Of a stretch of DNA of 64,000 bases, positions 14,806 through 63,412 are shown piece after piece (within the stretch, counting starts at the first letter, position 1; each line of letters starts with the position of its first letter). Source of the stretch: Sycon ciliatum (taxonomy: Eukaryota > Porifera > Calcarea > Leucosolenida > Sycettidae); the NCBI RefSeq assembly GCF_964019385.1, contig NC_088643.1, positions 815,855 through 879,854 of the forward strand. The letters are read 5' to 3'. The position numbers were made by a program, and so were the translations under genes. Under the pieces are notes generated by a model. That model made no database searches, had not been told where the DNA came from, and was given only the letters and a program-made list of their open reading frames with translations.

Positions 14806-14869
14806 CACCAATAGGTAAGCATCAAACATGGCTGGAAACATCATCATATACTCCTCCTACATAATAATT

Positions 14870-15715
14870 TAGACAAAGAGAAAGACCAAGGAACTACAAG
14901 TTACGCTATACTGTCCACTAACACCACCAGTTACTAAACAATCAGCTCATGCGATAACACTGCATGACACTGACCGACGGTACTAATGTTCTACAACTAA
15001 CTGGCTAATACCTCTAGCACATCTTGGATGCGCACTCCCACAGCCTTCCAACTTGGAAGGTTCTAAGTTATAGAAATAACATAAGGAGAGGAAGGTGAGC
15101 GCAACCAAGATAAGCACGAGCTGAAAGTCTCAGCTGTGAGGGACGTTGGCGGATGTTCATGCAGGTCGATGACGATACTGGCAATATCATTGGACAATAC
15201 GGTCAAACCACGATTCAGGAGCGCAAAGCCACATTCCACACAACTTGTGTGGCTCAAAAGATGCGAAGATCAATAAAAGGGAAGCTATGCGAACAAGAAT
15301 CATGAAAAAACCGAACGCCTCAGTAAAACAGCACGGTACTTCGACTATGACAATTTAGATGGACAATAAGCAGCAGTTTCACACGAAGATCGTTTCGCCG
15401 TATAGATAAAGACGGCTCATCAGGTGTGCAGGAATGGACTCAGATGGAGAGCCAAGGTGTAATTTATACAAAGAGAAAGACCAAGGAACTACAAGTTACG
15501 CTATACTGTCCACTAACACCACAAGTTACAAGATGTGCTAGAGCTGTAAGTAGGTTAGTTGTAGAACGTCGGTACCGTCGGTCAGTGTCGTGCAATGTTA
15601 TCGCATGAGCTGATTGTTTAGTAACTGGTGGTGTTAGTGGACAGTATAGCGTAACTTGTAGTTCATTGGTCTTTCTCTTTGTATAAATTAAACGTTGGCT
15701 CTCCATCTGAATCCA
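14870..15715 (-). mobile_element. Retrozyme-like element, subfamily 2, inverted dimer (copy A)
   Basis: A unit of about 595 bp is diverged from, but alignable to, the 591-bp units at 28-33 kb. It is followed head-to-head by a partial inverted unit (~15545-15715). The AATTT-A-ACAAAGAGAAAGACC start recurs at 14866 and 15461, giving the unit length. A perfect 12-bp duplication, TACATAATAATT, flanks the locus at 14858-14869 and 15716-15727, the mark of a retroposition event. No protein is encoded. It contains one hammerhead (15380-15428) and the hairpins with the AAGTT loop. Confidence 0.75.
15380..15428 (-). ncRNA. Hammerhead ribozyme, subfamily 2, defective helix III
   Basis: On the minus strand: CACAC, CTGATGA, a GCCGT/ACGGC helix II with an 8- to 10-base loop, GAAA, then CGATCTTC and GTGTG. 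Helices I and II and the core are intact. Helix III, ACG-TA-CGT in the 591-bp family, has lost pairing here, so cleavage should be poor. The copy-B homologue at 55309-55357 has the same change. Confidence 0.7.
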
Positions 15716-16514
15716 TACATAATAATTATTATGTATAAAAATATTTTAAGAGAGGACCACAATTTTTTAATTTTATATCTTGGCTCTCCATCCGAGTTGA
15801 ATTTACAAATGTATAAATCAAAAAAATCAAATCAATCAAATTTCAAAACATTGTCATTGCTAGTGTCATTGCTACAGCATATTTTAGTGCTAGGAAATAC
15901 TTTTGTGAAGTGTTCTGAGAGATTATTTCAAATGGTGAACGGTACTATTCGGCCAATAGAATCTAAGGAGGAATTTCAGTATCTACCTGCAACCCTTCCT
16001 TGGTTGGTGTGTGTAATGGCTACCGAGGGTAGCAGTGAGTCGGCTGTGAGAGCGCATGGAGGAGAGGAAGAGTTCTTGTTCTGAGAGAGATCGTTTAAAT
16101 TCATACATAATAATAATAATTATATTTCCTGAACATCTAGAACGTTTCCACCTTTCTCCGTCTTCGAGTCCCAGGAGACCCAGCAAACTGAGCATTATCT
16201 ATCACGATGTACGTTTTTCATCTTTGTTTTTCCACAAAGCCAGCAAACTATGTATATAGATGGGAACAACCACGGTCAGTTACTGTTACGTACTGGCAGA
16301 TGTGAAAGAAAATGATTAATTGAAAGAGGAATGGGGTAATTTCAAATTTGGAAAGAGCAGTACGTGGCATGTGGCCTCTAATTTCCTAAAAACTTAGGAA
16401 TGGGGTACTTAACTTGGTTCAGTACGTTGAAGCGAACTATCAGAAAACGAAAATACTGACAACCCCACGAGAACTGGTATCCGGTCAGCTAGGAGCATGC
16501 CATTTCGTCACCAG

Positions 16515-23988: not shown

Positions 23989-24541
23989 TTTGTGCACGCG
24001 CACATGTTGTCCAGGCGTCAGGGGCCCAGCCTCCCTGCCCATCCGACCCGCCACACACAACAACGAAACTGAACTAAGAGTTCTACATAATTTCTTGACA
24101 AGACGGAGACGGACAGACAAGAAGACCGGACACGACGAGGTAAACTGATAACTGAAGAAAAAGACTAACATTTATCGTTGGTTGGTTGGTTGGTTTTTAT
24201 TTCACTTCGCACATTCAAACGGGATGACGACCCAATAAAATGACGGCGAAGGCTTAGCCTAGAAGTGGCTATGGAAGAACATAGTAAAAGCTATGGAAGC
24301 ACAAAGTAAGAGAATAGGATACTAATAACTGCGGGTAAACGGGGGGATGGCAGCATACGAGCATGCGCGCAACAAAACACAACGTATGACAATGACGTAA
24401 CCGTTACTTGGATCATGTACAAACTATACATGCAACCAAACCAGTCAAATACGAGTCAAAGCAGAACGCAAAACAATCCAAAATAAACGAAAGGACCACA
24501 ACAAAAAGAGCCATGAAAAGTCTTTCTACCGATACACAACA
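23989..24541 (-). mobile_element. Second insertion unique to copy A: LINE 3' end with (AACC)n tail plus extra segment
   Basis: Copy B reads straight across (CACTGCTGTTGTTCTTAG). Copy A has 553 bp between two GCTGTT sites (23983-23988 and 24542-24547). From 24177 on it matches the LINE end at 27534-27700, with GGTT repeats as the minus-strand tail. The 23989-24176 part is unrelated to that end and may be a rearranged portion of the same element, as in twin priming. Confidence 0.75.
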
Positions 24542-24766: not shown

Positions 24767-25241
24767 GTTGATAAATATGGTGGTAAAGACACACCTGGCA
24801 ATATGGCGGTAAACACACGCCTGCTCACACACGCTCTCTAAGCTGCAAAGTTCTAGCACAGAGCTCTCCTTCTCACCACCACCACCATCAGTTCGCGCCT
24901 GGCGCCTAGTCGATGCATGGTTGGCGGTATCCGACATAGCAGGCTGGTACATCAAGTAGCGCAGGGCACATAGAAGATGACACAGCAACGACATAGCTCG
25001 ATTGCGACGTACGTTTCGTCCCCGCTGGACTCATCAGGCAATCTTCTTCTTGGATGTCTTCATACGGAGCTTGACTCGGGAGAATGAAGTGGTGAGAAGG
25101 AGAGCTCTGTGCTAGAACTTTGCAGCTTGGAGAGCGTGTGTGGGCAGGCGTGTGTTTATCGCCATATTGCCAAGTGTGTCTTTACCACCATATTTATCAA
25201 CCATAAGTGCAGTTGCAGTGGTGTCTTCAACTTCATTCTCT
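24767..25241 (-). mobile_element. 475-bp hammerhead-bearing retroelement, insertion unique to copy A
   Basis: A perfect 14-bp duplication, AAATGTCGGTTCAG, lies at 24753-24766 and 25242-25255. Copy B has this sequence once (around 63119), so the empty site is present. The element has inverted repeats of about 110 bp at its ends (GTTGATAAATATGG and complement; GAGAAGGAGAGCTCTGTG inside) and a central hammerhead. It has no coding capacity. A decayed relative lies at 52270-52530. Confidence 0.85.
25000..25043 (-). ncRNA. Hammerhead ribozyme, complete
   Basis: Minus strand: GATTGC, CTGATGA, GTCC-AGCGG-GGAC, GAAA, CGTACGTC, GCAATC. Helix I is a perfect 6 bp, helix II a perfect 4 bp, and helix III is the minimal ACG-TA-CGT type. 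Cleavage is expected after GTC, between 25006 and 25005. Core bases match the consensus throughout. Confidence 0.85.
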
Positions 25242-25322
25242 AAATGTCGGTTCAGCTAATTTTATTGATTGCGGTTATCAAATTATTGTCTCCTCGCCGT
25301 TTGTTTAAATAATACTTGTAAT

Positions 25323-25362
25323 TTGAAACTCGGGTATTGAGCCAATAATAAAAGTAGAAAGG
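25323..25362 (-). mobile_element. 40-bp retrozyme scrap with 12-bp target duplication
   Basis: TTGAAACTCGGGTATTGAGC and the following bases resemble the segment just upstream of the hammerhead in the 591-bp units. The scrap is flanked on both sides by AATACTTGTAAT (25311-25322 and 25363-25374), a word found once in copy B. It is a very short retroposed copy. Confidence 0.65.
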
Positions 25363-25461
25363 AATACTTGTAATAATAATATTTTTTGAAAGGATTGGGA
25401 GAACTTCAAATTTAAAGGATCAATTGGGGAAGTGAACTGCCTGAAAAGAGAAAAAAACCGC

Positions 25462-25533
25462 CAGACCCACCAGGACTCGAACCCAGGACCTTGCTTGTCA
25501 TGAGCAATGCTCTAACCACTGAGCTATGGGACC
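25462..25533 (-). tRNA. tRNA-like sequence (SINE head or tRNA pseudogene)
   Basis: The minus strand folds as a cloverleaf: acceptor GGTCCCA/TGGGTCT with one mismatch, D arm GCTC/GAGC, anticodon stem TTGCT/AGCAA and T stem CTGGG/CCTGG. The box A (TAGCTCAGTGG) and box B (GTTCGAGTC) of the pol III promoter are intact. The anticodon loop is CATGACA: base 33 is A rather than the universal U and the triplet TGA would be serine, yet there is no long variable arm. It is therefore unlikely to be a working tRNA. Downstream lies a possible SINE body ending in ATTATTATTA near 25376. Confidence 0.6.
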
Positions 25534-27509: not shown

Positions 27510-27533
27510 CCCACCGTACCGAAGACCCAGCAT

Positions 27534-28100
27534 GGTTGGTTGGTTGGTTGGTTTTTATTTCACTTCGCACATTCAAACGGGATGACGACCCAATAAAATG
27601 ACGGCGAAGGCTTAGCCTAGAAGTGGCTATGGAAGAACATAGTAAAGGCTATGGAAGCACATAGTAAGAGAATAGGATACTAATAACTGCGGGTAAACGG
27701 GGGGAGAGAGAGAATACGATGTATCTGTGATACTACGTGCGGGTTACTGAACTGCACGGGGAGGGAGAGCAGAGCAATCAGCAGCAACTCGAACTACTCC
27801 CTACAGGCGTATGGTACACATGCATGCTTAAACTCAGGTAGCCGGGTAATTGTGCGGACCTCACCAGGGAGAGCGTTCCAAAGCAGAGCACCATCAACAG
27901 AAAATCTCCGCTGACCGCGGCGGCTACGGTTTGCCTGGCTTAGTAGGCCATTTGACTGCTGATGGCGGGTAGGGGTGCCTTGTGCCGGGGTCAGAAGCTG
28001 GGCGAGCACAGGGCTGGTGCGGGCGTTGATGCACCGCCAGATGGTGATCAATATTTTCTGCCTGTAGCATGCGCTCCACAGGAAGTCGTGAGCTGAGGTC
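27534..28100 (-). mobile_element. 5'-truncated LINE with (AACC)n tail
   Basis: GGTTGGTTGG at 27534-27551 is the tail read on the opposite strand, followed by the same 3' UTR as at 24177-24541. The frame at 27794-28051 reads GALLWNALPGEVRTITRLPE, the conserved C-terminus of CR1/Jockey-group polymerases. Everything upstream is missing. Confidence 0.75.
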
Positions 28101-28715
28101 GACGACTCCAGCTAGCTGCTCTCATATCAGCTTTTTCATTTATATATTATTATTTTATTATTTTATTTATTTTTTATTTGAAACTCGGATGTTGAGCCAT
28201 AAATAAATGTAAAAGAGAAAAGGACATATGGATACGAGTTTAGAGTAACTCTCCATCACTGTAACATGATACTATATACAGTCAGAACGTGCAATAACTA
28301 GGCACAAAACTGACAGAGTACTGAGACATTCGACGTCCTGACACCTAACTTTAACACATCTCCGTAGCGCTAACCGACAGCCTTCCAACTTGGAAGGTTC
28401 AAGGTTATGGAAAGACCAAAGAGGGGAAGGCAAGCGCAACGAAAACGAGCAAAAGCTACAGTCCCAACGGAACAAAGAATGTCGATTGTTACTGGACGAT
28501 GACGAGACCAGTACGATATTTGACAAAGCGGTCTAACTACAATTCGAAGCAGCAAAGCAGCACACCACCCAACTTGGGTGGGTCATAAATATCAAAGATA
28601 AGTAAAGAAAGGGAAGCTTTGCGAAAACGAATTGTACAAGCCGAAAGCCAAACTCCTACAGTACTCCTCATGCATGACATTGTGATGGACTAGTTGACTA
28701 CAAAACAAGTTGTTT

Positions 28716-28764
28716 CACACGACGTACGTTTCGCCGTATGGTTCGTGACGGCTCATCAGGTGTG
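28716..28764 (-). ncRNA. Hammerhead ribozyme, array unit 1
   Basis: Minus strand: CACAC, CTGATGA, GCCGT with a 10-base loop and ACGGC, GAAA, CGTACGTC, GTGTG. All invariant core residues are present. Helix III is the minimal ACG/CGT with a 2-base loop. Cleavage is expected after GTC. Confidence 0.9.
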
Positions 28765-29306
28765 CAATTTGAAACTCGGATGTTGAGCCATAAATAAATG
28801 TAAAAGAGAAAAGGACATATGGATACGAGTTTAGAGTAACTCTCCATCACTGTAACATGATACTATATACAGTCAGAACGTGCAATAACTAGGCACAAAA
28901 CTGACAGAGTACTGAGACATTCGACGTCCTGACACCTAACTTTAACACATCTCCGTAGCGCTAACCGACAGCCTTCCAACTTGGAAGGTTCAAGGTTATG
29001 GAAAGACCAAAGAGGGGAAGGCAAGCGCAACGAAAACGAGCAAAAGCTACAGTCCCAACGGAACAAAGAATGTCGATTGTTACTGGACGATGACGAGACC
29101 AGTACGATATTTGACAAAGCGGTCTAACTACAATTCGAAGCAGCAAAGCAGCACACCACCCAACTTGGGTGGGTCATAAATATCAAAGATAAGTAAAGAA
29201 AGGGAAGCTTTGCGAAAACGAATTGTACAAGCCGAAAGCCAAACTCCTACAGTACTCCTCATGCATGACATTGTGATGGACTAGTTGACTACAAAACAAG
29301 TTGTTT

Positions 29307-29355
29307 CACACGACGTACGTTTCGCCGTATGGTTCGTGACGGCTCATCAGGTGTG
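29307..29355 (-). ncRNA. Hammerhead ribozyme, array unit 2
   Basis: Identical to the unit 1 ribozyme, 591 bp further on. Confidence 0.9.
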
Positions 29356-29897
29356 CAATTTGAAACTCGGATGTTGAGCCATAAATAAATGTAAAAGAGA
29401 AAAGGACATATGGATACGAGTTTAGAGTAACTCTCCATCACTGTAACATGATACTATATACAGTCAGAACGTGCAATAACTAGGCACAAAACTGACAGAG
29501 TACTGAGACATTCGACGTCCTGACACCTAACTTTAACACATCTCCGTAGCGCTAACCGACAGCCTTCCAACTTGGAAGGTTCAAGGTTATGGAAAGACCA
29601 AAGAGGGGAAGGCAAGCGCAACGAAAACGAGCAAAAGCTACAGTCCCAACGGAACAAAGAATGTCGATTGTTACTGGACGATGACGAGACCAGTACGATA
29701 TTTGACAAAGCGGTCTAACTACAATTCGAAGCAGCAAAGCAGCACACCACCCAACTTGGGTGGGTCATAAATATCAAAGATAAGTAAAGAAAGGGAAGCT
29801 TTGCGAAAACGAATTGTACAAGCCGAAAGCCAAACTCCTACAGTACTCCTCATGCATGACATTGTGATGGACTAGTTGACTACAAAACAAGTTGTTT

Positions 29898-29946
29898 CAC
29901 ACGACGTACGTTTCGCCGTATGGTTCGTGACGGCTCATCAGGTGTG
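29898..29946 (-). ncRNA. Hammerhead ribozyme, array unit 3
   Basis: Identical to the unit 1 ribozyme. Consecutive ribozymes would release a 591-nt monomer. Confidence 0.9.
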
Positions 29947-30488
29947 CAATTTGAAACTCGGATGTTGAGCCATAAATAAATGTAAAAGAGAAAAGGACAT
30001 ATGGATACGAGTTTAGAGTAACTCTCCATCACTGTAACATGATACTATATACAGTCAGAACGTGCAATAACTAGGCACAAAACTGACAGAGTACTGAGAC
30101 ATTCGACGTCCTGACACCTAACTTTAACACATCTCCGTAGCGCTAACCGACAGCCTTCCAACTTGGAAGGTTCAAGGTTATGGAAAGACCAAAGAGGGGA
30201 AGGCAAGCGCAACGAAAACGAGCAAAAGCTACAGTCCCAACGGAACAAAGAATGTCGATTGTTACTGGACGATGACGAGACCAGTACGATATTTGACAAA
30301 GCGGTCTAACTACAATTCGAAGCAGCAAAGCAGCACACCACCCAACTTGGGTGGGTCATAAATATCAAAGATAAGTAAAGAAAGGGAAGCTTTGCGAAAA
30401 CGAATTGTACAAGCCGAAAGCCAAACTCCTACAGTACTCCTCATGCATGACATTGTGATGGACTAGTTGACTACAAAACAAGTTGTTT

Positions 30489-30537
30489 CACACGACGTAC
30501 GTTTCGCCGTATGGTTCGTGACGGCTCATCAGGTGTG
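30489..30537 (-). ncRNA. Hammerhead ribozyme, array unit 4
   Basis: Identical to the unit 1 ribozyme; the last one before the inversion. Confidence 0.9.
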
Positions 30538-30945
30538 CAATTTGAAACTCGGATGTTGAGCCATAAATAAATGTAAAAGAGAAAAGGACATATGGATACG
30601 AGTTTAGAGTAACTCTCCATCACTGTAACATGATACTATATACAGTCAGAACGTGCAATAACTAGGCACAAAACTGACAGAGTACTGAGACATTCGACGT
30701 CCTGACACCTAACTTTAACACATCTCCGTAGCGCTAACCGACAGCCTTCCAACTTGGAAGGTTCAAGGTTATGGAAAGACCAAAGAGGGGAAGGCAAGCG
30801 CAACGAAAACGAGCAAAAGCTACAGTCCCAACGGAACAAAGAATGTCGATTGTTACTGGACGATGACGAGACCAGTACGATATTTGACAAAGCGGTCTAA
30901 CTACAATTCGAAGCAGCAAAGCAGCACACCACCCAACTTGGGTGG

Positions 30946-31160
30946 TCACAATGTCATGCATGAGGAGTACTGTAGGAGTTTGGCTTTCGGCTTGTACAAT
31001 TCGTTTTCGCAAAGCTTCCCTTTCTTTACTTATCTTTGATATTTATGACCCACCCAAGTTGGGTGGTGTGCTGCTTTGCTGCTTCGAATTGTAGTTAGAC
31101 CGCTTTGTCAAATATCGTACTGGTCTCGTCATCGTCCAGTAACAATCGACATTCTTTGTT
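30946..31160 (+). repeat. Retrozyme array, inverted partial unit at the palindrome centre
   Basis: A 215-bp piece of the unit in the opposite orientation, beginning TCACAATGTCATGC and stopping at TTCTTTGTT. Five G's then precede a second copy that starts at exactly the same base (31166). The reuse of one breakpoint is notable. Confidence 0.9.
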
Positions 31161-31677
31161 GGGGGTCACAATGTCATGCATGAGGAGTACTGTAGGAGTT
31201 TGGCTTTCGGCTTGTACAATTCGTTTTCGCAAAGCTTCCCTTTCTTTACTTATCTTTGATATTTATGACCCACCCAAGTTGGGTGGTGTGCTGCTTTGCT
31301 GCTTCGAATTGTAGTTAGACCGCTTTGTCAAATATCGTACTGGTCTCGTCATCGTCCAGTAACAATCGACATTCTTTGTTCCGTTGGGACTGTAGCTTTT
31401 GCTCGTTTTCGTTGCGCTTGCCTTCCCCTCTTTGGTCTTTCCATAACCTTGAACCTTCCAAGTTGGAAGGCTGTCGGTTAGCGCTACGGAGATGTGTTAA
31501 AGTTAGGTGTCAGGACGTCGAATGTCTCAGTACTCTGTCAGTTTTGTGCCTAGTTATTGCACGTTCTGACTGTATATAGTATCATGTTACAGTGATGGAG
31601 AGTTACTCTAAACTCGTATCCATATGTCCTTTTCTCTTTTACATTTATTTATGGCTCAACATCCGAGTTTCAAATTG

Positions 31678-31726
31678 CACACCTGATGAGCCGTCACGAA
31701 CCATACGGCGAAACGTACGTCGTGTG
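31678..31726 (+). ncRNA. Hammerhead ribozyme, right arm unit 1
   Basis: Same sequence on the plus strand: helix I 31678-31682 with 31722-31726, CTGATGA 31683-31689, helix II 31690-31694 with 31705-31709, GAAA 31710-31713, cleavage after C31721. Helix I may continue past an asymmetric 7-base bulge (GTTT with AAAC), a place where loop-loop contacts normally form. Confidence 0.9.
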
Positions 31727-32268
31727 AAACAACTTGTTTTGTAGTCAACTAGTCCATCACAATGTCATGCATGAGGAGTACTGTAGGAGTTTGGCTTTCG
31801 GCTTGTACAATTCGTTTTCGCAAAGCTTCCCTTTCTTTACTTATCTTTGATATTTATGACCCACCCAAGTTGGGTGGTGTGCTGCTTTGCTGCTTCGAAT
31901 TGTAGTTAGACCGCTTTGTCAAATATCGTACTGGTCTCGTCATCGTCCAGTAACAATCGACATTCTTTGTTCCGTTGGGACTGTAGCTTTTGCTCGTTTT
32001 CGTTGCGCTTGCCTTCCCCTCTTTGGTCTTTCCATAACCTTGAACCTTCCAAGTTGGAAGGCTGTCGGTTAGCGCTACGGAGATGTGTTAAAGTTAGGTG
32101 TCAGGACGTCGAATGTCTCAGTACTCTGTCAGTTTTGTGCCTAGTTATTGCACGTTCTGACTGTATATAGTATCATGTTACAGTGATGGAGAGTTACTCT
32201 AAACTCGTATCCATATGTCCTTTTCTCTTTTACATTTATTTATGGCTCAACATCCGAGTTTCAAATTG

Positions 32269-32317
32269 CACACCTGATGAGCCGTCACGAACCATACGGC
32301 GAAACGTACGTCGTGTG
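32269..32317 (+). ncRNA. Hammerhead ribozyme, right arm unit 2
   Basis: Identical to 31678-31726, 591 bp downstream. Confidence 0.9.
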
Positions 32318-32822
32318 AAACAACTTGTTTTGTAGTCAACTAGTCCATCACAATGTCATGCATGAGGAGTACTGTAGGAGTTTGGCTTTCGGCTTGTACA
32401 ATTCGTTTTCGCAAAGCTTCCCTTTCTTTACTTATCTTTGATATTTATGACCCACCCAAGTTGGGTGGTGTGCTGCTTTGCTGCTTCGAATTGTAGTTAG
32501 ACCGCTTTGTCAAATATCGTACTGGTCTCGTCATCGTCCAGTAACAATCGACATTCTTTGTTCCGTTGGGACTGTAGCTTTTGCTCGTTTTCGTTGCGCT
32601 TGCCTTCCCCTCTTTGGTCTTTCCATAACCTTGAACCTTCCAAGTTGGAAGGCTGTCGGTTAGCGCTACGGAGATGTGTTAAAGTTAGGTGTCAGGACGT
32701 CGAATGTCTCAGTACTCTGTCAGTTTTGTGCCTAGTTATTGCACGTTCTGACTGTATATAGTATCATGTTACAGTGATGGAGAGTTACTCTAAACTCGTA
32801 TCCATATGTCCTTTTCTCTTTT

Positions 32823-32985
32823 ATATTTTTTATTTTCTTATTATTATTTTTTTCTTCCTCTTTCACATGTATCATCTTTCCGTTTTTCCTTCCTCTATAT
32901 AAATGTACCCCCCCCCCCCTCCCCTCCCCCTGTGCCTACTCCTCCCCAGTTTTTGGTACTCTGAAGTGTCGCTGAAGCCGAGACC
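32823..32985. other. AT-rich and C-rich spacer
   Basis: A T-rich stretch followed by poly-C interrupted by T. No feature is supported. Confidence 0.6.
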
Positions 32986-36969: not shown

Positions 36970-38275
36970 GGTGATATACAGGTAACATCAAAATGAACAT
37001 AAACAATGGATTTAAAACTACATCAGAGAGGTGATAGAAACAGCGCAAGGGAGGTGGGAGGTGAGCCAAAACAACAGCGCAAGGGAGGTGGGAGGTGAGC
37101 CAAAACAACAGCGCAAGGGAGGTGGGAGGTGAGCCAAAACAACAGCGCAAGGGAGGTGGGAGGTGAGCCAAAACAACAGCGCAAGGGAGGTGGGAGGTGA
37201 GCCAAAACAACAGCGCAAGGGAGGTGGGAGGTGAGCCAAAACAACAGCGCAAGGGAGGTGGGAGGTGAGCCAAAACAACAGCCCAAGGGAGGTGGGAGGT
37301 GAGCCAAAACAACAGCGCAAGGGAGGTGGGAGGTGAGCCAATACAACAGCGCAAGGGAGGTGGGAGGTGAGCCAAAACAACAGCGCAAGGGAGGTGGGAG
37401 GTGAGCCAAAACAACAGCGCAAGGGAGGTGGGAGGTGAGCCAAAACAACAGCGCAAGGGAGGTGGGAGGTGAGCCAAAACAACAGCGCAAGGGAGGTGGG
37501 AGGTGAGCCAAAAAAACAGCGCAAGGGAGGTGGGAGGTGAGCCAAAACAACAGCGCAAGGGAGGTGGGAGGTGAGCCAAAACAACAGCGCAAGGGAGGTG
37601 GGAGGTGAGCCAAAACAACAGCGCAAGGGAGGTGGGAGGTGAGCCAAAACAACAGCGCAAGGGAGGTGGGAGGTGAGCCAAAACAACAGCGCAAGGGAGG
37701 TGGGAGGTGAGCCAAAACAGCAGCGCAAGGGAGGTGGGAGGTGAGCCAAAACAACAGCGCAAGGGAGGTGGGAGATGAGCCAAAACAACAGCGCAAGGGA
37801 GGTGGGAGGTGAGCCAAAACAACAGCGCAAGGGAGGTGGGAGGTGAGCCAAAACAACAGCGCAAGGGAGGTGGGAGGTGAGCCAAAACAACAGCGCAAGG
37901 GAGGTGGGAGGTGAGCCAAAACAACAGCGCAAGGGAGGTGGGAGGTGAGCCAAAACAACAGCGCAAGGGAGGTGGGAGGTGAGCCAAAACAACAGCGCAA
38001 GGGAGGTGGGAGGTGAGCCAAAACAACAGCGCAAGGGAGGTGGGAGGTGAGCCAAAACAACAGCGCAAGGGAGGTGGGAGGTGAGCCAAAACAACAGCGC
38101 AAGGGAGGTGGGAGGTGAGCCAAAACAACAGCGCAAGGGAGGTGGGAGGTGAGCCAAAACAACAGCGCAAGGGAGGTGGGAGGTGAGCCAAAACAACAGC
38201 GCAAGGGAGGTGGGAGGTGAGCCAAAACAACAGCGCAAGGGTTCATGTTCATTGTGATGTTACCTGTATATCACC
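36970..38275. mobile_element. Inverted-repeat element with minisatellite core
   Basis: GGTGATATACAGGTAACATC begins a 30-bp repeat at 36970-36999 whose inverted partner is at 38246-38275 (29 of 30 identical). Between them lies little but the 34-bp tandem array. Such an arrangement, inverted ends enclosing a tandem core, is known from non-autonomous transposons of marine invertebrates. No target duplication was recognised. Confidence 0.6.
37041..38240. repeat. 34-bp minisatellite, about 35 copies
   Basis: The unit contains GCGCAAGGGAGGTGGGAGGT followed by GAGCCAAAACAACA. Only about seven isolated single-base variants were seen over 1.2 kb. Since 34 is not a multiple of three and the unit has no stop on the minus strand, all three minus frames stay open for over 400 codons with a 34-residue peptide repeat. 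These frames are not evidence of a gene. Confidence 0.97.
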
Positions 38276-39788: not shown

Positions 39789-39857
39789 TGAGGACCTATA
39801 GCACGTGGCAAGTAATCGTCAGTACACGTCAGGTCATTATATGCTCACAAGTACTAC

Positions 39858-39955
39858 ATCAGTTTGAAACCCTTTAGAAAGGCAAGGACAATCGACGAAA
39901 CTAATTATTAGTTTCGTCGATTGTCGCTGCCTTTCTAAAGGGTTTCAAACTGATG
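39858..39955. mobile_element. Foldback hairpin 2
   Basis: The same palindrome as 39650-39788 with only one internal repeat, so the two arms meet almost directly. The flanking AGCACGTGGCAAGTAATCG block is duplicated too, so this is a local duplication rather than a second insertion. Confidence 0.75.
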
Positions 39956-41544
39956 TGAGGACCTAGCAAAAGATTGTAGCGGAATTATTGTCAGAAGAGA
40001 AAAAGGTTCTGGTGGCCATTAGTGAGGTTTCGCTCTACGGAATTACGTATGAAAATGACGTAGGAACTGTACGGAATTTTCATACGTAAAAATCAGAGCT
40101 GCTGGGTTTCGTTCTACGTGATTTCTCCACGACTGCTAAACATGCGTTGTTGCTTTGGACACGCGTTGGCTGCATGCGTCCACCGCATGCACCATGAACC
40201 GAAACCGCGTTTTCCATTTTATTTTTGCACGTCACTGGTGTACGGTGTGTGTACCTTGTGTTTCGCGCGGCTTGAACGTTGCCATGGACAAATGGGGAAA
40301 ATGCGAAAAAATATTTCAAAAAGTCCTACGGAGGACCCAACGTAGGAAAGAGTTTTCCTTCGAAAATCCGTAGAGAGATTTACATAATTGTTAGATTGAC
40401 AGCATAAAACAAGGAGGAGGACACTGTGTTCGAAAACAGTGACCTTACTACAACCTTCCGCGGTTGGCAGAGTCCCGGTCCCTGCGGACCATTTGAACCA
40501 TATGGGTATCGCACTCGGTTCTGACCCTCGTTATGCTAGGGGGTTAGGAGACTACTCCTGATGTCGTCTTCGCTCTTTTTTTACTTGTATAAAACTTCTC
40601 TTTCTTCTTCTTTTTCTTTCCAACTTCTGCCCATGGCGTCCTTGTCTCAGCTCGTCAGCTGTAAACAGTTTTTGTCATCACCATGACACTGCCGCGAGAA
40701 GGTGCTCTCTGTAGACGGGGTTGGTGATGTCCCGACGTGGCCGTGGGTAGGCCTTCACCACGTCGGAACACCCCGGCTACACGTTGGTCACGTCAACTAC
40801 TTATGTTTGTAAATCACTTCGTTGTTGATCTTATTGTTTCCTAAAAACACTTGAGGGAATTGAGAGTTTTTCTTTTTACACGTTTGGGTACACACGTTGG
40901 ATGCATTGACGGAAGAGCTAGATACTAACATGTATGTTCAATATTTTGTCGCTGAATTCTTTATGAACCTGGAAACTACATTTTAAGCAATGTAATTTTT
41001 TATGTGTATATCATAAGAATTTAAAGGTGAGGAAGAAAGCTCTTCTTACGTCTTACCCCTGTTATTAAGTCATGGCGAATGAAGGAGACGCTGAGGTTGT
41101 CAGTTGAGGTAGCGATCCATCGTCAATACATTTCTTAACTTTTTTTCAAGAAAACTACCTGGAAGGACTGCACTCAATGCATTCAGCTACTACTAGTACT
41201 AGTAGTTTCAGAAGAGCTACCTGGAAGGACTGCACCCAATGCATCCAGTGCAGCTACTAATAATTTTTAATTTTAAATTATTATGTGTGTTGTGCAACTG
41301 CGTGCGTTTGGTCTTTACAAGCAAGCGTGGTTAGCTTATCAAGATTGGGAAAGGTGAGTGACGCAGAGTTTAAACTGGATATATACGTACATAGTGAGTA
41401 ACTGGTCTTAAATGTAGATCACATAGTAATGTTGTGCGGTACATGACACTCAAGGCTGCTAGCTTCACTCTCATAATTATTATGTGCAACATCACTGTAT
41501 GCTCAAGTAATCTAGTCAATGGACTGTAACGATGTCATCTGGGT
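39956..41544. other. No gene recognised; local tandem duplication
   Basis: Around 41155-41260 the words AACTACCTGGAAGGACTGCA and AATGCATYCAG are repeated at about 65 bp spacing. The rest shows AT-rich and T-rich DNA without supported coding regions. Confidence 0.4.
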
Positions 41545-52072: not shown

Positions 52073-52269
52073 CCCATTAGAACGGTTTCTACCATTTTAG
52101 AGTTTTTCAGTGGAAACGTCATGGCGATGATGACGTCATGGCGATGATGACGTCCGATCAGATCGACCATCTCCACGTTCTACGTGACGTAGCTATTCCA
52201 AACTCTTCGAAATTAATCCACCGGTCCCATCGGATGAGGTTGTGGAGTTTCGAGGCGCTTCACCCGGGA

Positions 52270-52530
52270 GAATGAAGTTGAAAACACCACTGCAGCTGTA
52301 CTTATGGCTGATTAATAATTATGGTGATAAAACACACACCTGGCAATATGACGGGCACGAAGCGTGCTAACAATCAAGCTATGGCGTTGCTGTGTCATCT
52401 TTCATGTCACATGCGCTATGCCTGATGTACCAGCCTGCTATGTTGGATACCGTCACCATGCATCGACTAGGCGCCAGGTGAGAACTGATGGTCGTGGTGG
52501 TAAGAAGGAGAGCGCTGTGCCAGAATATTA
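52270..52530 (+). mobile_element. Decayed relative of the 475-bp hammerhead element
   Basis: GGGAGAATGAAGTTGAAAAC, the CACACCTGGCAATATG word, CGTTGCTGTGTCATC, ACCAGCCTGCTATGTTGGAT and CATGCATCGACTAGGCGCCAGG follow the order of the element at 24767-25241. The hammerhead core is missing; similarity resumes at CAATC-AGC, the 3' strand of helix I. Confidence 0.6.
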
Positions 52531-54798: not shown

Positions 54799-55644
54799 TA
54801 GACAAAGAGAAAGACCAAGGAACTACAAGTTACGCTATACTGTCCACTAACACCACCAGTTACTAAACAATCAGCTCATGCGATAACACTGCATGACACT
54901 GACCGACGGTACTAACGTTCTACAACTAACTGGCTAATACCTCTAGCACATCTTGGATGCGCACTCCAACAGCCTTCCAACTTGGAAGGTTCTAAGTTAT
55001 AGAAATAACATAAGGAGAGGAAGGTGAGCGCAACCAAGATAAGCACGAGCTGAAAGTCTCAGCTGTGAGGGACGTTGGCGGATGTTCATGCATGTCGATG
55101 ACGATACTGGCAATATCATTGGACAATACGGTCAAACCACGATTCAGGAGCGCAAAGCCACATTCCACACAACTTGTGTGGCTCAAAAGATGCGAAGATC
55201 AATAAAAGGGAAGCTATGCGAACAAGAATCATGAAAAAACCGAACGCCTCAGTAAAACAGCACGGTACTTCGACTATGACAATTTAGATGGACAATAAGC
55301 AGCAGTTTCACACGAAGATCGTTTCGCCGTATAGATAAAGACGGCTCATCAGGTGTGCAGGAATGGACTCAGATGGAGAGCCAAGGTGTAATTTATACAA
55401 AGAGAAAGACCAAGGAACTACAAGTTACGCTATACTGTCCACTAACACCACAAGTTACAAGATGTGCTAGAGCTGTAAGTAGGTTAGTTGTAGAACGTCA
55501 GTACCGTCGGTCAGTGTCGTGCAATGTTATCGCATGAGCTGATTGTTTAGTAACTGGTGGTGTTAGTGGACAGTATAGCGTAACTTGTAGTTCATTGGTC
55601 TTTCTCTTTGTATAAATTAAACATTGGCTCTCCATCTGAATCCA
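54799..55644 (-). mobile_element. Retrozyme-like element, subfamily 2 (copy B)
   Basis: Same structure as 14870-15715, shifted by 39929. It was duplicated with the segment, so the insertion predates the duplication. Confidence 0.75.
55309..55357 (-). ncRNA. Hammerhead ribozyme, subfamily 2, copy B
   Basis: Identical to 15380-15428, including the defective helix III. Confidence 0.7.
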
Positions 55645-56443
55645 TACATAATAATTATTATGTATAAAAATTTTATAAGAGAGGACCACAATTTTTTAAT
55701 TTTATATTTTGGCTCTCCATCCGAGTTGAATTTACAAATGTATAAATCAGAAAAATCAAATCAATCAAATTTCACAACATTGTCATTGCTAGTGTCATTG
55801 CTACAGCATATTTTAGTGCTAGGAAATACTTTTGTGAAGTGTTCTGAGAGATTATTTCAAATGGTGAACGGTACTATTCGGCCAATAAAATCTAAGGAGG
55901 AATTTCAGTATCTACCTGCAACCCTTCCTTGGTTGGTGTGTGTAATGGCTACCGAGGGTAGCAGTGAGTCGGCTGTGAGAGCGCATGGAGGAGAGGAAGA
56001 GTTCTTGTTCTGAGAGAGATCGTTTAAATTCATACATAATAATAATAATAATATTTCCTGAACATCTAGAACGTTTCCACCTTTCTCCGTCTTCGAGTCC
56101 CAGGAGACCCAGCAAACTGAGCATTATCTATCACGATGTACGTTTTTCATCTTTGTTTTTCCACAAAGCCAGCAAACTATGTGTATAGATGGGAACAACC
56201 ACGGTCAGTTACTGTTACGTACTGGCAGATGTGAAAGAAAATGATTAATTGAAAGAGGAATGGGGTAATTTCAAATTTGGAAAGAGCAGTACGTGGCATG
56301 TGACCTCTAATTTCCTAAAAACTTAGGAATGGGGTACTTAACTTGGTTCAGTACGTTGAAGCGAACTATCAGAAAACGAAAATACTGACAACCCCACGAG
56401 AACTGGTATCCGGTCAGCTAGGAGCATGCCATTTCGTCACCAG

Positions 56444-63027: not shown

Positions 63028-63412
63028 CATATTTTTCTCTACACCATTTCTTCATATTTTAATCGTTTTATTACACATCGTCTCCACCGTTTTTTACATT
63101 GCATGAATAAAGTACACAAATGTCGGTTCAGCTAATTTTATTGATTGCGGTTATCAAATTATTGTCTCCTCGCCGTTTGTTTAAATAATACTTGTAATTA
63201 ATCGACGCGGAGACAACAATTTTATAATAGCTATAAAGAGAACAAATTCTGCTGTCATCGCCACACTACAACAAAGTCATGAAGGTTTACCAAAATCTCT
63301 CAGCAAGCTCTCTTGCTCAGCTGGTGACGAACACTATAATACCCGCTGCTTTGGGCTTGCAGCCCCGTCTCCCCACCTTAGACTGATCGAAAGGCTGTCA
63401 CGGTCCTGTGAC

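Follow-up and report, generated by a model that had tools for sequence, protein, structure and literature searches.

How does a block of ribozyme-bearing repeats come to be tandem, palindromic and near-identical throughout when it encodes no protein? The question is raised by an array of 591-bp units found in a 64,000-nucleotide stretch of the calcareous sponge Sycon ciliatum (contig NC_088643.1, positions 815,855 to 879,854; the whole of this stretch is called the window below). Each unit junction of the array carries a hammerhead motif of the kind found in retrozymes, and the array as a whole is flanked by a target-site duplication (TSD). The structure of its ends, and the recurrence of those ends in a diverged relative, lead us to favor the reading that the array is a non-autonomous retrozyme of the metazoan type, with a 591-nt monomer, which was probably inserted once by the machinery of a Penelope-like element (PLE) acting in trans.

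Repeat finding and BLAST place the array at 28180-32823 and show 591-bp units that are 100% alike wherever they overlap. Lower identity figures in the same output belong only to stretches running across the center or into the flanks. Five antisense copies spaced at 591 are followed by sense copies at 220, 591 and 591. If RNA position 1 of the unit is set at the predicted hammerhead cut, the left arm (28180-30945, minus strand) comprises 4.68 units and extends from RNA 541 (541-545 when microhomology is allowed for) to RNA 140, stopping at the edge of a 17-nt palindrome, CCACCCAAGTTGGGTGG (RNA 140-156). It is followed by a central sense piece of 215 nt (30946-31160, plus strand; RNA 36-250), by the bases GGGGG (31161-31165, plus strand), which differ from the unit's own continuation there, and by the right arm (31166-32823, plus strand), which comprises 2.81 units and reaches its outer end at RNA 511 without a tail. 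Both sense pieces start, in DNA, at RNA 36, and the five G residues lie between RNA 250 of the first and RNA 36 of the second. The flanks on the two sides are not mirror images. The original prediction, made from the letters alone, of a palindromic array of identical 591-bp units is thus borne out. Its head-to-head switch is also real, and is seen again in a diverged relative at 15 kb, but the sense piece and the GGGGG at the center had been overlooked. As had been stated, no protein is encoded: at least five stops interrupt each of the six circular frames, the longest stretch is 86 aa, and the open reading frame (ORF) with reverse transcriptase (RT) and GIY-YIG domains expected of a PLE proper is absent from the array unit, which has no long ORF. 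The G+C content of the unit is 0.433, against 0.475 for the window. The monomer is also long for an animal, as claimed, at 591 nt compared with the 170-400 nt given in the abstract of PMC7229834; in the discussion of that paper, hammerhead circles may range from 150 to >1000 nt.

The hammerheads were examined with the covariance check that had been proposed. Run over the window, the Rfam model Hammerhead_1 (RF00163) matches all six unit junctions as type I hammerheads with 26.8 bits each (E 0.025), below its cut-off of 34. Four of the matches are on the minus strand in the left arm (28715-28765, 29306-29356, 29897-29947 and 30488-30538) and two on the plus strand in the right arm (31677-31727 and 32268-32318), in agreement with the expectation of ribozymes on both strands in different arms. 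By reading, the core (CUGAUGA / GAAA / GUC) is intact, as is helix II (GCCGU/ACGGC); helix I is CACAC/GUGUG, and helix III consists of two pairs under a palindromic GUAC. The minimal helix III that had been pointed out is therefore the form known from invertebrate retrozymes (PMC7229834).

The outer ends of the array differ from each other in a specific way. The antisense arm starts from RNA 541 and the sense arm runs to RNA 511, and the difference of 30 nt (RNA 512-541; 28180-28209, minus strand) forms a one-sided tail at the left arm's outer end only. This tail contains the stem-loop GGCTC-AACATCC-GAGTT, that is, GGCTC-N7-GAGT(T). When the array unit is searched against the window with BLAST, a diverged copy appears at 15.0-15.5 kb and a second one, its counterpart in a segmental duplication, at 54.9-55.4 kb. 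The 15-kb relative is 846 bp long (14870-15715, minus strand) and has the same layout: a tail-less sense arm of about 1.15 units lies head to head with an antisense arm (~162 nt) whose outer end bears the tail. The relative has a unit of 595 nt, which aligns with the array unit over 579 columns at 64% identity (69% over the 466-column BLAST core). When its TSD is taken as 12 bp, both of its ends fall at bases homologous to those of the array, again 30 nt apart. If microhomology is taken into account the tail measures 30-34 nt in the array and 25-31 nt in the relative, and it is 30 nt in both at 12-bp TSDs. The loop of the stem-loop is AACAUCC, and AC-rich, in the array and UCCAUCU in the relative. 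Under uniform priming on a circle, both end coincidences would arise with a probability of 3.5e-4 within 5 nt, or 2.9e-6 if exact; we adopt the former value because microhomology leaves the edges inexact. A Pol III terminator was considered as the cause of the RNA 511 end, given the T-runs in the array, and was rejected on finding that the relative has no TTTT at that place.

The 15-kb relative retains a hammerhead relic (15380-15428, minus strand) in which the core and helix II are kept, the triplet is TTC rather than GTC, and helix III is altered; Rfam does not list it at E<=5. An AAA beside helix I is common to this relic and the array hammerheads and may bear on a contact between loop 1 and loop 2. 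The duplicate at 55 kb (54799-55644, minus strand) is identical in layout and TSDs, and its unit is 99.5% identical to that of the 15-kb copy. In both, the head-to-head arms are 92-95% alike, which points to an old insertion. The two copies lie in a large segmental duplication (~13.4-20 kb / 53.3-60 kb), which also holds matching minor repeats.

The tail also occurs on its own. A solo insert of 40 nt (25323-25362, minus strand) consists of the tail region only, with the 3' end GAGTTTCAA, and is flanked by AATACTTGTAAT at 25311-25322 and 25363-25374, a TSD of up to 12 bp. Its end corresponds to RNA 543, at the same stem-loop. Because the array, the 15-kb relative and this insert all end there, the tail region is a preferred initiation site. 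A tRNA-like sequence (25462-25533, minus strand; 46.2 bits), which might be the head of a SINE, lies near the solo insert. A further solo copy of the tail is present at 15751-15800 (plus strand; duplicate at 55680-55729).

Matching 12-mers surround all three insertions with both edges fixed, namely the array, the 15-kb relative and the solo insert at 25.3 kb; the solo tail at 15.75-15.80 kb, which has no settled TSD, and the 55-kb element, a duplicate of the relative, were left out of this count. TATTTTTTATTT stands on both sides of the array (28168-28179 and 32824-32835) with zero bases left over. Four of its bases, ATTT, also match the array unit, so that the duplication is 8-12 bp long, the lower value applying if the ATTT is assigned to the element. 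The copies around the relative (15716-15727, reading AATTATTATGTA in RNA sense, and 14858-14869) extend to 12 bp, or to 6 if all microhomology is assigned to the element. A+T residues account for 12, 11 and 10 of the 12 positions in the three TSDs, each of which contains ATT, so that all three targets are AT-rich. Shuffled flanks of 30 bp reach 12 matching bases in 1.0% of cases for the array (0.02% with 60-bp flanks), in 0.001% for the relative and in 0 of 100,000 for the solo insert. The array's TSD is modest evidence by itself because its flanks are T-rich. Microhomology at the junctions amounts to 4 nt (541 end) and 0 nt (511 end) in the array and to 1 and 5 nt in the relative, that is, 0-1 nt at two of the four junctions and 4-5 nt at the other two.

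Precedents for such ends exist among PLEs. Here and below, PMC11167929, PMC3846280, PMC7761336, PMC11722881 and PMC4918200 are cited from excerpts. In the anole, the PLE protein PAc makes its cuts at ATT in AT-rich DNA, on both strands, and extends both. It initiates reverse transcription internally, at a pair of neighboring sites within an AC-rich stem-loop, and the interval between these start sites is the 30-40-bp tail found on some genomic anole PLE ends (PMC11167929). The hammerhead of the anole PLE is assisted by protein. Penelope inserts of Adineta vaga have head-to-head inverted pLTRs, a one-sided 31-bp tail and TSDs of 8-10 bp, and in one case the pLTRs moved a host gene (NRPS) in trans (PMC3846280). 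On the retrozyme side, PLEs have been named as a strong candidate partner of animal retrozymes on the basis of co-occurrence (PMC7229834), and the excerpts of PMC7761336 and PMC11722881 likewise treat them as likely partners. According to the review PMC7761336, as excerpted, retrozyme repeats carry no conserved motif that reveals the partner.

On the reading that a PLE acted in trans, transcripts of older arrays would self-cleave at the hammerhead and the monomer would be circularised, as in published retrozymes. A PLE protein, probably as a dimer, would bind the stem-loop of the tail, immediately upstream of the hammerhead, and would cut an AT-rich target on both strands with a stagger of about 12 bp, a spacing that would correspond to the observed duplication. 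Both 3' ends would then prime, presumably in the hands of this enzyme, at the start points observed near RNA 541 and near RNA 511, and both cDNAs would lap the template repeatedly, for 4.68 and ~3.2 units. To judge from the center of the array, one cDNA may have halted at RNA 36 and gained extra bases before jumping to RNA 250 and coming to a second stop at 36. Joining of the two cDNAs would yield a head-to-head palindrome with the tail at one outer end only. The predicted cleavage site is crossed six times without a break in the array DNA, and the template was therefore not a cleaved linear monomer. It was probably circular; a circle and an uncleaved multimer could both account for the unbroken crossings. 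The PLE reading offers one explanation for the array being tandem, palindromic and near-identical. It also changes two statements of the original prediction. The description of the element as autonomous-looking does not hold, as no enzyme is encoded and the end structures are like those left by Penelope-type enzymes. Near-zero divergence had been attributed to recent amplification or active homogenisation; the units are indeed identical, but homogenisation is unneeded because a single reverse-transcription event on one RNA species suffices to yield identical units.

On predicted folding, the sense RNA is structured. The array's sense circle has a predicted energy of -175.2 kcal/mol (z -4.8, 60 shuffles), and the antisense circle, at -148.3, is close to its shuffle mean of -142.4. 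A two-sequence circular consensus fold of the array and 15-kb units gives z -9.1 (20 column shuffles) and also contains the tail stem. Of its 118 predicted pairs, 86 are unchanged, 18 have one-sided changes, 14 have two-sided changes and 0 are broken, the last figure being partly by construction since the fold itself picked the pairs.

A LINE could also have brought in the array, by twin priming: the stem-loop would be recognised as a LINE 3' end, and the second DNA end would prime inside the RNA with the aid of microhomology. The window contains LINE-like fragments with RVT_1 and Exo_endo domains, the length of the TSDs is compatible, and hammerhead repeats of Nematostella have 15-bp LINE-like TSDs (PMC4918200). 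The solo insert, which ends at the stem-loop, resembles a 5'-truncated LINE or SINE tail, and two of the four junctions show microhomology of 4-5 nt. Nevertheless, twin priming predicts a variable second site, whereas the second site is homologous in both of the independent insertions, which chance internal priming would rarely achieve (the 3.5e-4 given above for both sites within 5 nt), and by reading no A-rich or microsatellite tail is present; the tail may be shared with a LINE 3' end of the window. We consequently regard a LINE origin as rather unlikely. Satellite-type amplification, in which the repeats would have been multiplied and inverted as DNA, through unequal exchange or fork switching, with the hammerhead as a passenger, could explain the perfect identity of the units, and the 220-bp central duplication may be a DNA-level event of this kind. 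As an account of the whole block it is very improbable: 12-mers match around the entire block, the end positions are common to a 64% identical relative elsewhere, and the number of units is small.

The palindrome itself might be the product of a fold-back read in assembly or library preparation. Perfect long arms are typical fold-back substrates, and those of the array are perfect over 1.6 kb. Such an artefact would also mirror the flanks, however, and the flanks of the array differ; its arms end at different RNA positions, and the 15-kb relative and its 55-kb duplicate have the same layout with arms whose divergence of the degree given above marks them as old. On these grounds an assembly artefact is unlikely, and we give it hardly any weight. 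A comparably slight chance attaches to self-priming of a cDNA on the antisense template, which has been proposed for head-to-head Penelope structures (PMC3846280). The 17-nt palindrome at the point where the left arm stops (RNA 140-156) would suit this mechanism, but the cDNA would then run on symmetrically from RNA 140, whereas the next base is RNA 36; no such palindrome was noticed, by reading only, at the center of the 15-kb relative.

Several observations weigh against the PLE reading itself. An uncleaved multimeric transcript would also yield several laps. No PLE was found in the window: the six frames contain no match to a GIY-YIG pattern, and Pfam shows none in the 19 frames that it covered out of 40 that are 150 aa or longer. 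Some junctions have microhomology, unlike the anole PLE, whose start site is not homologous to the cut DNA, and PLE insertion in vitro is independent of hammerhead cleavage (PMC11167929). Another hammerhead element at 25 kb (475 bp, TSD 14) has no such tail, and the loop UCCAUCU of the 15-kb relative is not AC-rich. The TSD of the array falls within a T-rich tract, where 2 of the 1681 breakpoint pairs in two 60-bp flanks give at least 12, and the three TSDs shrink to 8 (array), 6 (15-kb relative) and ~9 (solo insert) if microhomology is assigned to the element. None of the six array hammerheads is listed at the Rfam cut-off. A local 121-nt fold of tail plus hammerhead is unremarkable (z -0.65), and in the array circle GGCUC of the tail is predicted to pair with GAGCC of the hammerhead (0.99), in a fold that has no hammerhead helix; nearest-neighbor folds of this kind ignore loop-loop contacts. 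Finally, only two independent insertions have the full layout.

A bolder form of the PLE reading may be put forward tentatively. A PLE protein would copy hammerhead circles by double-primed rolling-circle reverse transcription, in which the two ends of a single staggered break would each travel around a circular RNA, and one event would give a head-to-head palindromic satellite. The tail would serve the enzyme as a landing site and would, in the array, also act as a switch, keeping the hammerhead closed until the protein binds. This is possible, though we would not put it at even odds. The switch in particular is kept as speculation, as the predicted pairing of tail and hammerhead is strong in the array circle only and is missing from the minimum-energy fold of the 15-kb relative.

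The window contains further repeats. The hammerhead element at 25 kb (24767-25241, minus strand, 475 nt) is unrelated to the array. Its hammerhead (25000-25043) scores 35.4 bits in Rfam, above the cut-off, and its predicted fold is rod-like (circular minimum free energy -271.7, z -22.9, 40 shuffles). It is flanked by a 14-bp TSD, AAATGTCGGTTCAG. The insertion is evident from the paralogous site at 63118-63131, which is empty. It was considered as a second Penelope case and rejected: its inverted arms point the other way (by reading), besides its lack of the tail. A relative of this element at 52268-52525 (minus strand) is 84-86% identical over two pieces and lacks much of the hammerhead region. 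A dispersed repeat with a (TTGG)n start occurs at 24174-24347 and 27532-27705, the copies being 98% identical. At 37039-38241 lies a 34-bp tandem array of 35 copies with 99% matches, open in three minus-strand frames. A long hairpin at 39849-39961, perhaps a foldback element, matches miRNA models on each strand, with scores under the cut-offs of these models, and adjoins a 20-bp repeat present three times. Pfam matches, in the same set of frames as above, comprise DUF1759, which we take to be a BEL/Pao domain, and the LINE-like domains RVT_1 and Exo_endo; together they suggest an animal host. Exact scans of viral contigs for the tail module and the hammerhead gave 0 matches, as did an exact scan of bacterial and archaeal genome contigs for the hammerhead, and collections of this composition tell little.

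If the double-primed rolling-circle model is true, events of this kind would be a source of hammerhead satellites in animal genomes. The two-site tail is the kind of motif that could reveal a retrozyme's partner enzyme, and it makes the question of the partner testable in any animal genome by end-mapping, or with the anole PLE assay. We found no earlier report, in the open-licence literature, of this signature (a two-site tail and head-to-head ends) on a retrozyme.

Among known systems, the array is most readily set beside the metazoan non-LTR retrozymes (Cervera and de la Pena 2020, PMC7229834). It has their type I hammerhead, with a two-pair helix III and palindromic tetraloop, and like them it is tandem and non-coding, with a G+C content of 43% (<50%), no long terminal repeat (LTR) and a structured RNA. 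It differs in its monomer of 591 nt (595 nt in the 15-kb relative), longer than the usual 170-400 nt, which is a range and not a limit, and in its layout, with arms set head to head and defined ends of which one bears the stem-loop tail, features not described in PMC7229834. Plant LTR retrozymes also form hammerhead-delimited circles, of 600-800 nt (PMC4918200; sizes per PMC7229834). Theirs is a type III hammerhead, however, accompanied by LTRs, a primer binding site and polypurine tract, a 4-bp TSD and mobilization by Gypsy (PMC4918200; TSD per PMC7229834), whereas the array has a type I hammerhead and a longer TSD. With the PLEs, as far as the excerpts describe them, the array and the 15- and 55-kb elements share head-to-head inverted ends, a one-sided tail of ~30 nt at a stem-loop and a TSD near 10 bp, as well as AT-rich targets with ATT, a hammerhead and partial tandems. 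In contrast to PLEs, the array has no ORF with RT or GIY-YIG domains, its hammerhead is not the minimal PLE form, it consists of several laps of a short unit, and some of its junctions show microhomology. The NRPS gene mobilised by Penelope in Adineta vaga (PMC3846280, as excerpted) is a similar case of a sequence that lacks an enzyme being moved in trans with PLE ends and a TSD, although there the cargo is a host gene between pLTRs and no hammerhead circle is involved.

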